A stretch of 63,929 nt of DNA, from NCBI GenBank assembly GCA_947626495.1, contig CANQSJ010000010.1:1-63929 (forward strand). Reading direction: 5' to 3'. The notes under the pieces are model-generated. The model did not search any database, had not been told where the DNA came from, and was given only the letters and a program-made list of their open reading frames with translations. Made by a program: the position numbers and the translations under genes. This document shows positions 17,545-37,251 of this stretch, one piece after another; positions within the stretch are counted from its first letter, which is position 1, and each line of letters begins with the position of its first letter. The DNA is from an uncultured Oscillospiraceae bacterium (GTDB lineage Bacteria > Bacillota > Clostridia > Oscillospirales > Oscillospiraceae).

Positions 17545-17862
17545 CTATTCCCACGTCTTCCACACGTCCGGGCAGTAGCCCACGGTGGCCTGCCTGCCGT
17601 TGCGGACGATGGGCGTTTTCAGCAGCTCCGGACACTGGAACAGCTTCTCCAGCTTGTCCTCGTCGTAGGCCAGATAGCCGACCTCCGGCGCGTCGCTCAT
17701 GGCGGTCAGCCCCACCGCGTTTTTCACCGCCGTCAACTCTCCGCGGCTCATGCCGTAGCGGAGGATGTCCACGTACTGGAACTTCACCCTCCGCTCCTTG
17801 AAATACCGCTGGGCCTTTTTCGTGTCGAAGCACTTGTTTTTGCCGAAAATCTGGATGTTCAT
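17545..17862 (-). CDS. ArsC/Spx-family thioredoxin-fold protein
   Basis: 105 residues. Starts NIQIFGKNKCFDTKKAQRYF, with a single N-terminal Cys (Cys10) where Spx has CxxC, then the VKFQYVDILRYGMSRGEL and LLKTPIVRNGRQATVGY segments common to the ArsC/Spx (glutaredoxin-like) family. The pattern fits the small arsenate-reductase-like proteins of Firmicutes, whose function is mostly unknown. Genuine arsenate reduction is not supported by the context, which is a housekeeping run between RNase J and gpsA. The start is 2 bp after the RNase J stop. Confidence 0.8.
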   Translation of the reverse strand: MNIQIFGKNKCFDTKKAQRYFKERRVKFQYVDILRYGMSRGELTAVKNAVGLTAMSDAPEVGYLAYDEDKLEKLFQCPELLKTPIVRNGRQATVGYCPDVWKTWE

Positions 17863-17863
17863 C

Positions 17864-19525
17864 TCACACTTCCATGATGACCGGCAGGATCATGGGGCTG
17901 CGGCGGGTGACTTTATACAGATACCCGCTCAGATTGCCCCGGACCCGGCTCTTGATGTCGGCCCAGTCGGTGATCCGGGCCCGCTCGCAGGATTCGATGG
18001 ACTCATACACCACCCGGCGCATGTCCTCCATGAGCTGGGGGTTGTCCTTGACGTACACAAAACCCCGGGTGATGATCTCCGGCTCGGAGATCATGGACCC
18101 GTCCTGGCCGGACATGGTCATGACCACCACCAGCATCCCGTCCTGGGCCAGATGCTGCCGGTCCCGCAGGACCACGTTCTCCACGCCCTCCTCGGTGGCG
18201 CCGTCCACCAGCACCCGGCCGGAGGGCACCGTGCCCGCCTTGTGGATGCGCTTGGAGGTGATCTCCACCACCTCGCCCACCCCGGCGATGAGCACGTTGG
18301 AGGGCTTCACGCCCATCTCCTTGGCCAGATCCCCGTGGCGGCACAGCATCCGGTGCTCCCCGTGGACGGGGATGAAATACTGGGGTCGGGTCAGGGCCAG
18401 CATGGTCTTCTGCTCCTGCTGGCAGGCGTGGCCGGACACGTGGATGTCGATGCTCCGGTCGTAGATGACCTCCGCGCCCTTATAGAAGAGCTCGTCGATG
18501 ACCTTGGTGATGGTGCGCTCGTTGCCGGGGATGGCGGAGGCGGAGATGATGACCCGGTCCCCCGCGCTGATCCGCACCTGCCGGTGCTCGGAAAAGGCCA
18601 TCCGGTACAGCGCGGACATGTTCTCCCCCTGGCTGCCGGTGGTCATGATCACCACCCGGGAGGCGGGGAGGGAATTGATATGGTTCATATCCACCAGCAC
18701 GTCCTTGGGCACGGTCAGATAGCCCTCCTCCGTGGCCAGGCGGATCACGTTCTCCATGCTCCGGCCGGTGACGCCCACCTTGCGCTTATACCGGGCGGCG
18801 CAGTCGATGATCTGCTGGATGCGGTGGACGTTGGAGGCGAAGGTGGTGACGATGATGCGCTTGTCGCAGCCCCGGAACAGGTTCTCCAGGCTCTCCCCCA
18901 CGTGCCGCTCGGACTCGGAATAGCCCGGCCGCTCCACGTTGGTGGAGTCGCTCAAGAGCGCCAGCACACCCTCCCGGCCCAGCTCCGCGAACCGGTGGAA
19001 GTCGAACACGCCCCCCTCGATGGGCGTCAGATCGATCTTGAAGTCGCCGGTGTGGATCACCGTGCCCGCCGGGGACTTGATGGCCAGGGCCACGCTGTCG
19101 GCGATGGAGTGGTTCACGTGGATGAACTCACATTCAAAGTTGCTGCCCACCTTGAAGCAGTCCCCCGCCGAGTGGGTGACGATCTCCACCTTGTCCGCCA
19201 GGCCGTGCTCCTCCAGCTTCAGACGCACCAGTCCCGCCGTCAGACGGGTGGCGTAAATGGGACAGCTGATTCGGCTCATCACATAGGGCACCGCCCCGAT
19301 GTGGTCCTCATGGCCGTGGGTGAGCACCATGCCCCGGACCCGTTCCTTGTTCTGTACGAGATAGGTGATGTCCGGGATGACCACGTCGATGCCGTACATG
19401 TCCTCGTCGGGAAAGCCCATGCCGCAGTCCACCACCAGGATGTCCTTGCCGTACTCGTAAACATACAGGTTCTTGCCGATCTCATCCAGACCGCCAAGAG
19501 CCACGATCTTCAGTTTTTGTGCCAT
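17864..19525 (-). CDS. rnj: Ribonuclease J
   Basis: Metallo-beta-lactamase/beta-CASP ribonuclease with 5'-3' exo- and endonuclease activity, central to mRNA turnover and rRNA maturation. 553 residues. The metal site includes His70-Gly-His72-Glu-Asp74-His75. The DFKIDLTP segment and the beta-CASP NIPxGSQGE-like stretch (MTTGSQGENMSAL) follow, and the HVSGHACQQEQ motif is near residue 370. HGEHRML and a C-terminal domain to 553 complete the family pattern. Only one RNase J is visible here, so J1 versus J2 cannot be told. AAGGAG lies about 14 bp from the ATG. 99 bp downstream of recR. Confidence 0.95.
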   Translation of the reverse strand: MAQKLKIVALGGLDEIGKNLYVYEYGKDILVVDCGMGFPDEDMYGIDVVIPDITYLVQNKERVRGMVLTHGHEDHIGAVPYVMSRISCPIYATRLTAGLVRLKLEEHGLADKVEIVTHSAGDCFKVGSNFECEFIHVNHSIADSVALAIKSPAGTVIHTGDFKIDLTPIEGGVFDFHRFAELGREGVLALLSDSTNVERPGYSESERHVGESLENLFRGCDKRIIVTTFASNVHRIQQIIDCAARYKRKVGVTGRSMENVIRLATEEGYLTVPKDVLVDMNHINSLPASRVVIMTTGSQGENMSALYRMAFSEHRQVRISAGDRVIISASAIPGNERTITKVIDELFYKGAEVIYDRSIDIHVSGHACQQEQKTMLALTRPQYFIPVHGEHRMLCRHGDLAKEMGVKPSNVLIAGVGEVVEITSKRIHKAGTVPSGRVLVDGATEEGVENVVLRDRQHLAQDGMLVVVMTMSGQDGSMISEPEIITRGFVYVKDNPQLMEDMRRVVYESIESCERARITDWADIKSRVRGNLSGYLYKVTRRSPMILPVIMEV

Positions 19526-33491: not shown

Positions 33492-33505
33492 TGAAAAATA
33501 GGAAA

Positions 33506-33529
33506 AAGCGGCGGGTGCCCCCGCCGCTT
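33506..33529 (-). terminator. Terminator of the SpoIIQ-like gene
   Basis: AAGCGGCGGG-GGCA-CCCGCCGCTT followed by TTTCC on the minus strand; the flanking A and T runs on both sides make it look bidirectional. Confidence 0.88.
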
Positions 33530-33546
33530 TTTTCCTTTGTTTTTTC

Positions 33547-34320
33547 TCACTCTGCCCCGTCTTCCGGCAGATAACCCATGGGATCGGTGCTCAATCCGTC
33601 CTTCGTCATGGCAAAGTGGAGGTGGCTGACCTGGTTGACCTCCCCCAGCGCCGTGGTCCCCACAGAGCCGATGACCTGGCCCATGGTGACCACCTGGCCC
33701 ACGCCCACCGGGGGCTCCGCCGCCAGATTGGCGTAGATGGAGTGGGTACCGTTGCCGTGGTCGATCTCCACGGTGGTGCCCAGCAGATCGTCGCTGGACA
33801 CATCCACCACCGTGCCGCCTGCCGCCGCCAGGACCTGTTCGCCCTGGGCGCAGGCCACGTCGATGCCGTCATGGGTGCGCCAGTCGGCCATGGTGCTGTC
33901 GTACAGCAGCCGATCGATGGAATAGGGCACCTGCACGGAGCCCCGCACCGGCCAGACATAGCTGGTCACGGTCTCGGAGAACACCGCCTGCGCCGGCGCT
34001 TCCTCCTGCCGGGAGGCGTCCTCCTCCGACCCATTCTCCGCCGAGGCGTCCTCCGTCCCGTCGCCGGTATCGGCGGGCGCCGCGCTCTCCTGCTCCGGAT
34101 CGGTGCGCATCGCCTCGTCCGCCGGGATCATGGTGACGAACGCGCCGGACACGTCCACCACCGGTTCCTCTGCCATCACGTCTTCTACATTAGTCCCCGC
34201 GTCGGTGAGCATGATCCAAAGGGAGATGCCGATCACCGCCGCGCACAGGAAAAGGACTATGTAGAAGCCCTTTCCCCCCATGGACCCGGCTCTGGCGCCG
34301 GACCCCTGCTTGTTTTCCAT
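33547..34320 (-). CDS. Membrane-anchored LytM (M23) protein, SpoIIQ-like
   Basis: 257 residues. Cytoplasmic N-terminus of about 18 residues, one transmembrane helix (about 19-39), a disordered acidic linker (60-115), then an M23/LytM domain (about 125-250). Metal residues appear intact: His150 and Asp154 in THDGID, and His233/His235 in HLHF. In clostridial SpoIIQ the LytM domain keeps these residues, unlike Bacillus. Topology, size and an apparent sigma-F-type promoter directly upstream argue for SpoIIQ, the forespore partner of SpoIIIAH. Against this, other single-TM M23 peptidases share the layout and no other engulfment gene is adjacent. GGAGGGTCAAAACAA precedes the ATG. Confidence 0.7.
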   Translation of the reverse strand: MENKQGSGARAGSMGGKGFYIVLFLCAAVIGISLWIMLTDAGTNVEDVMAEEPVVDVSGAFVTMIPADEAMRTDPEQESAAPADTGDGTEDASAENGSEEDASRQEEAPAQAVFSETVTSYVWPVRGSVQVPYSIDRLLYDSTMADWRTHDGIDVACAQGEQVLAAAGGTVVDVSSDDLLGTTVEIDHGNGTHSIYANLAAEPPVGVGQVVTMGQVIGSVGTTALGEVNQVSHLHFAMTKDGLSTDPMGYLPEDGAE

Positions 34321-34333
34321 TTGTTTTGACCCT

Positions 34334-34385
34334 CCAAAAAAATTGGTGTTTCCGAAGGCTATTGTTGCCTTGGAAACACCAATTT
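34334..34385 (-). terminator. eno terminator
   Basis: On the minus strand AATTGGTGTTTCC (34372-34384) and its complement (34341-34353) enclose a further AAGGC/GCCTT stem, and a run of seven T follows immediately. It ends the trmL-pgk-tpiA-gpmI-eno operon. Confidence 0.92.
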
Positions 34386-34389
34386 ATAC
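34360..34389 (-). promoter_or_regulatory. Sigma-F-like promoter inside the eno terminator
   Basis: GTATA (34385-34389), 15 bp, then GGCAACAATA (34360-34369) on the minus strand. This matches every fixed position of the sigma-F consensus GYATA...GGNNANAHTR. The -10 lies in the loop of the eno terminator, so RNA starting about 7 bases later contains only the 3' arm and would not terminate. It points at the SpoIIQ-like gene. Confidence 0.65.

Positions 34390-34414: not shown

Positions 34415-37251
<2,837 letters not shown>

Follow-up and report, generated by a model that had tools for sequence, protein, structure and literature searches.

The gap between an enolase gene and a SpoIIQ-like gene in the window, i.e., the whole analysed stretch of 63,929 nt from an uncultured Oscillospiraceae bacterium (contig CANQSJ010000010.1, assembly GCA_947626495.1), carries a putative sigma-F promoter nested in a hairpin. 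We consider it probable, with fairly high confidence, that this element serves as the spoIIQ control region and that the hairpin sorts RNAs by their origin. The observed basis of this reading is the sequence itself, its conservation, the covariation in relatives, the placement of the helix around the -10 and an association with the orientation of the gene upstream.

From the sequence we infer sigma-F use, the start site, termination and a translation block at the locus. The promoter spacer and the -10 would supply the 5' arm and the loop of the hairpin. RNA read through from eno (or from gpmI in some relatives) would have both arms, fold and end at the T-run just 5' of the spoIIQ Shine-Dalgarno, and read-through RNA that escaped the T-run would have this Shine-Dalgarno largely paired. 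RNA made by sigma-F from about 34353 would start in the 3' arm, form no hairpin and be translated. Such sorting by origin would confine SpoIIQ to the forespore despite the housekeeping gene upstream.

For the early forespore genes of Clostridia at large (spoIIQ and spoIIR), the chances appear even that they tend to a design rule, with the sigma-F start inside a hairpin and only the RNA begun in the forespore being expressed. The form would follow the neighbour: a terminator form behind glycolytic genes and a Shine-Dalgarno form behind the mother-cell gene spoIID.

The element and the gene downstream

We used the sigma-F consensus as given in the original prediction (GYATA, a spacer of 15, GGNNANAHTR). 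The claimed agreement with every fixed base proved exact: in the window, GTATA is followed after a 15-nt spacer by GGCAACAATA (34389-34360; Table 1). The -10 had been placed in the hairpin loop, which is correct for its last seven bases, while its first three, GGC, belong to the stem. The start had been proposed to lie past the loop, and the position derived from the promoter geometry, 34353, indeed falls within the 3' arm (34340-34359). The 5' arm shares bases with the end of the -35, the spacer and the start of the -10. RNA from the predicted +1 starts at GGAAACACC and lacks the 5' arm; thus, as far as the predicted start is concerned, initiation would occur between the hairpin arms.

Table 1. 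Features of the element and the adjacent genes (positions of the whole stretch)
Feature	Position	Strand	Basis
sigma-F-like -35, GTATA	34385..34389	-	sequence; GYATA in 27/30 genus loci, GAATA in 3/30
sigma-F-like -10, GGCAACAATA	34360..34369	-	sequence; column identity 0.98 in 19 sequences
Hairpin 5' arm	34367..34385	-	fold; covariation in relatives
Hairpin loop, AACAATA	34360..34366	-	fold
Predicted transcription start, +1	34353	-	inferred from promoter geometry, 7 nt past the -10
Hairpin 3' arm: inner GCCTT, bulged C, outer GGAAACACCAATTT	34340..34359	-	fold; column identity 0.94
T7 tail (T-run)	34336..34342	-	sequence; T form in 26/26 folded genus loci
Shine-Dalgarno of the SpoIIQ-like gene, GGAGGG	34330..34335	-	sequence
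SpoIIQ-like gene, 257 aa, ATG at 34320	33547..34320	-	Pfam Peptidase_M23; reciprocal best match
Enolase gene (eno), co-directional, upstream	34415..35707	-	Pfam Enolase_N and Enolase_C

The stem has 19 bp with one bulged C and lies in the 94 nt that separate the eno stop from the ATG of the SpoIIQ-like gene. The folding energy of the region was -33.3 kcal/mol compared to a mean of -14.4 for shuffled sequences (z -6.9), and none of the 200 shuffles was equally stable. A stable stem followed by a T-run, here 19 bp and T7, is the arrangement of an intrinsic terminator, and the T7 tail is predicted to make the hairpin terminator-like in read-through RNA. A simple terminator scan overlooked this hairpin because of its loop limit of 8 and because it permitted no bulges. 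Searches in Rfam returned two matches with E of about 0.8, far under the gathering scores.

Because the T-run is downstream of the predicted start, the hairpin is unable to protect the promoter against passing polymerase and could only sort RNAs. The Shine-Dalgarno was predicted to be unpaired at 0.27 in the read-through RNA compared to 0.53 in the RNA from the predicted start. Since this gain is modest, termination would be the likelier main effect at the window locus, ahead of a translation block.

Were the promoter real and read by sigma-G, or by sigma-F and sigma-G together, the gene would not be an early forespore gene. In C. difficile, sigma-F and sigma-G have closely similar consensus elements. 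According to the excerpts of PMC3789822, those of sigma-F are distinguished by a conserved G on the upstream side of the -10 and those of sigma-G by an A on its downstream side. By this rule, which is that of C. difficile, the window promoter is on the sigma-F side, with GG upstream of the -10 and G next downstream. The same excerpts have C. difficile spoIIQ on the sigma-F list; its sigma-F promoter has been identified and its expression depends on sigF. Sigma-G control of the window gene appears very improbable. The sigma-F promoter of C. difficile spoIIQ has a predicted counterpart in the window; a hairpin is not mentioned for C. difficile spoIIQ in these excerpts (PMC3789822).

Rarity of the motif was considered as evidence and rejected, the genome-wide counts being the same as in the reversed control. 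GYATA-N15-GGNNANANTR had two sites in the 2.14-Mb assembly and two for the control; a looser form had six and six, and two of its six sites precede spoIIQ and spoIIR. The case rests instead on where the motif lies and on its conservation.

The downstream gene had been described as coding for a single-TM LytM protein with intact metal residues, as in SpoIIQ, and this description held. Pfam Peptidase_M23 matched residues 149-247 of the 257-aa protein, and one hydrophobic segment was seen by eye near the N-terminus (about residues 17-38), which together give the combination of one TM and a LytM/M23 domain expected for SpoIIQ. Among 18 relatives, H233 and H235 did not vary and H150 and D154 hardly did; we take these four to be the metal-binding residues of the M23 domain. 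The best NCBIfam model was the SpoIIQ model NF053738, with 67.4 bits against an equivalog cut-off of 250; therefore, the gene is not filed under that model. A profile of the 18 relatives matched the B. subtilis SpoIIQ chains 3uz0 and 3tuf with E of about 2e-22, a search in which other M23 peptidases scored alike.

Relatives from other families were found directly after a spoIID-like ORF at 33 of the 120 loci with an upstream call, the spoIID-like ORFs being recognised by a motif taken to mark spoIID. Reciprocal best matching was run for one such gene (L047): searched back against the genome of the window (G000), it had the window gene as the best match (E 3e-26), followed by a match at 2e-8. 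We regard the window gene as the genome's best SpoIIQ candidate and a likely SpoIIQ-like orthologue. In the same genome, a sigF candidate follows spoIIAA/AB-like ORFs; it scored 249 bits against a cut-off of 321, with sigF as its best NCBIfam match. The spoIIR, spoIIIAH, gpr and spoIVA of this genome all scored above their cut-offs.

Conservation of the element and its upstream neighbours

The same-genus set had 35 genomes, including that of the window, and 30 of them gave a usable locus. The original prediction had proposed to look in relatives for the -35 and -10 bases together with the hairpin, and both were kept: the sigma-F pattern matched at 27 of the 30 loci (the -35 reads GAATA in L027, L028 and L029), and all 30 showed the inverted repeat. 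In an alignment of 19 sequences, the mean column identity was 0.54 for the adjoining upstream flank, compared to 0.94 for the -35, 0.98 for the -10, 0.90 for the spacer and 0.94 for the 3' arm. Judged by these alignments, conservation of the element exceeds chance.

Covariation within the genus was weak, with changes on both sides at 2 of 19 pairs, a value reached by 62 of 500 shuffles. Such nearly invariant arms would also be expected if the inverted repeat were a DNA operator, overlapping the promoter, of a dimeric regulator. An operator would keep its letters, however, and we observed that the arm letters change pairwise in related genera and are unrelated among some other loci that have the layout. 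In seven relatives with a T-run (L032, L117, L126, L131, L138, L143 and L145), picked for one common register, with T forms in other registers left uncounted, the promoter and the geometry were kept and the arms were altered. Here, 103 of 112 cells were paired and compensatory changes occurred at 14 of 16 pairs, compared to 39-66 cells and 1-7 pairs in slid registers. The operator reading is thus extremely unlikely.

The hairpin had been called the eno terminator. A terminator-like hairpin does follow eno; as eno's own terminator it did not stand. The gene upstream of spoIIQ in the 30 same-genus loci was eno in 22, gpmI in 7 and without assignment in one, and the element was present in all of them whatever the neighbour, including the seven behind gpmI. 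Because it accompanies spoIIQ even where gpmI replaces eno, the element belongs to the downstream gene.

This bears on the simplest alternative, a plain terminator of the upstream gene that overlaps the promoter because the 94-nt gap is short, the overlap having no function of its own. Hairpins did accompany upstream genes of the same direction, which is what ordinary terminators would do: outside the genus, where a direction call was obtained for 94 of 150 loci, z<=-2 was found in 40 of the 63 loci where the upstream gene was co-directional compared to 4 of the 31 where it was opposite. The longest ORF proved unusable as a guide to direction in GC-rich genomes that carry long antisense ORFs. 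Conservation scoring, used in its place, assigned a direction at 120 of 176 loci, with the caveat that 7 of 26 genus loci were called opposite; six of these were miscalled, eno or gpmI being actually co-directional (L007, L011, L017, L019, L020, L026), and the seventh was L024.

We also scanned for terminators with a strict procedure that allowed one mismatch and no bulge. Among 18 eno-adjacent loci from other genera, six had a separate, ordinary terminator directly before the spoIIQ -35 and no merged element (L101, L107, L121, L123, L147, L157), three had a merged one and none had both, and the separate ones fit a plain terminator. By eye, four further loci were merged (L131, L138, L143, L145) and one further was separate (L100). 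The same scan of 19 genus eno loci gave 14 with the merged form only, two with both and three with neither.

Other counts speak against the plain terminator, as does the persistence of the element when the upstream gene differs. The helices are centred on the -10, and merged terminators occurred at the random pseudo-starts of only 1 of 273 background genes. Behind spoIID, separate terminators were found at 0 and a merged one at 1 of 33 loci, yet z<=-2 was reached in 19 of the 33. Overall, we consider a plain terminator unlikely.

Pairing over predicted starts in Clostridia

Upstream regions were read for 210 spoIIQ, 66 of 69 spoIIR, 31 gpr and 29 of 30 spoIVA genes, and 64 of the spoIIR regions were kept. 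Removal of duplicates, of regions with less than 110 nt upstream and of regions with N reduced the 210 spoIIQ regions to 184, and in 176 of these the promoter score was at least 9. In each region the best sigma-F-like site was picked blind to structure, the start was placed 7 nt after it, and the pairing across this start was tested against sequences with a shuffled 5' side. The background consisted of 273 genes from these contigs, read at matched pseudo-starts.

Pairing with z<=-3 was found in 69 of 176 spoIIQ regions (52/105 in the genus and order set, 17/71 in the class set) and in 15 of 49 spoIIR regions (14/29 and 1/20, respectively), compared to 6 of 273 in the background. None of the 17 gpr regions with a sigma-F-like site reached this level, and 2 of 31 did when the score limit was dropped. 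For spoIVA, which has no sigma-F site of its own, a sigma-F-like score of at least 9 was seen in 1 of 29 regions, and z<=-3 in 5 of 29 at best sites that are meaningless. Since 107 of the 176 spoIIQ regions fall short of z<=-3, the design is not general.

With the spoIIQ proteins clustered at 60% identity, the median z was <=-3 in 31 of 106 clusters, and cross-start pairing of -10 kcal/mol or below occurred in 42 of 106 compared to 32 of 273 background genes. At 50% identity these counts were 11 and 14 of 45 clusters. The sampled genomes are related to one another, and P values for such comparisons are therefore too small. Helix coverage peaked at -15 to -5 in the spoIIQ clusters and in spoIIR; in gpr there was a dip at these positions.

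Two forms of the layout were distinguished: the T form has a T-run between the 3' arm and the Shine-Dalgarno, whereas the S form has the Shine-Dalgarno within its 3' arm. The T form was found in 26 of 26 folded genus loci, 17 of 108 clusters, 3 of 49 spoIIR, 2 of 17 gpr and 2 of 273 background regions. Pairing of the Shine-Dalgarno with bases before the start, at a probability of at least 0.5, was predicted in 25 of 26 genus loci, 69 of 106 clusters, 24 of 44 spoIIR, 3 of 17 gpr and 100 of 273 background regions. A cruder count of the S form, by helices that hold the Shine-Dalgarno, was mildly raised (44/108 clusters vs. 85/273). The Shine-Dalgarno gained at least 0.3 in unpaired probability in the short RNA in 51 of 152 spoIIQ regions compared to 57 of 244 background ones; in L110, L119 and L126 it was still paired in the short RNA. 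Beyond the genus, the 3' arm often appears to carry the Shine-Dalgarno and not a T-run.

Among nine same-genus spoIIR regions, z<=-3 was found in four and z<=-2 in six. In L333 (G000:C22:1465-3400) and L334-L340 the -10 lies between the arms of a hairpin, e.g., ATCACCG..CGGTGAT, with the Shine-Dalgarno within the 3' arm; the gene's own RNA would be almost leaderless. The original prediction had presented a single element that both insulates and starts one gene. Uniqueness to one locus did not survive, related layouts occurring at same-genus spoIIR and at spoIIQ of other Clostridia, often with the Shine-Dalgarno occluded; the logic of insulating and starting is supported from sequence.

Known systems and other observations in the genome

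The principle that RNA lacking the 5' arm escapes a hairpin is already known from B. subtilis sigG and T4 gene e. The excerpts of PMC5942855, which cite Masuda 1988 and Sun 1991, describe for B. subtilis sigG (spoIIIG) a large hairpin proposed to block translation of RNA read through from the spoIIG operon, which cannot form in the RNA from the gene's own sigma-F/sigma-G promoter. For the window, too, the hairpin is predicted to form in the read-through RNA only. The differences are that sigG is another gene, that in these excerpts only translation is blocked and only one gene is concerned, whereas the window hairpin ends in a T-run and the layout occurs at spoIIQ and spoIIR over many genomes.

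For phage T4 gene e and I-TevI, the excerpts of PMC3014915 and PMC2988022 report that folding of the long early RNAs conceals the ribosome site, while RNAs from a late promoter beside the gene, without the 5' part, are translated. A similar escape of a short RNA without the 5' arm is predicted for the window. In contrast to the window, these excerpts concern phage late promoters, have no terminator form and describe effects measured experimentally.

The spread over spoIIQ and spoIIR and the terminator form look new. A literature search by title and abstract, with most subscription papers outside its scope, found no report of a start-in-hairpin design at spoIIQ or spoIIR. If the sorting reading is true, it would explain how a forespore-only gene can stand behind a strong housekeeping gene or the mother-cell spoIID with compartment control kept. 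It would also mean that placing a start inside a terminator can sort transcripts by origin, and it would provide a structural mark for sigma-F genes in uncultured spore formers. If the design rule is true, cell identity would undergo a second check, at the RNA level, via transcript origin.

Several other features of the genome could be of interest. A second sigma-F-like site, GCATA-N15-GGTTAGACTG, precedes an ORF in L347 (G000:C29:16327-16356, minus strand), where the spacer pairs with GGCGCCGGCGTT, located right after GGGGAGG. In the window, positions 33501-33534 form a strong two-sided terminator-like hairpin between the ends of the spoIIQ-like gene, which are free of convergence, and the ATG (33388) of a gene that we take to be proB-like.

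In L352 (G000:C13:5800-24800), an element of about 15.9 kb seems to interrupt sigG near model position 91-94; the N-part lies at 17547-17942 and the C-part at 1109-1609, both on the minus strand. The element has a large serine recombinase adjoining the sigG N-part, as well as a DNA methylase, a type III restriction-like protein and a SIR2-like protein, and a 9-nt word, GGTGCCGAT, is common to both edges. Among the matches listed for the genus, the sigG C-part started at 90/91 in at least 10 of 35 genomes, and sigG was contiguous in at least 17. The interruption looks like a recurrent skin-like element in the genus.
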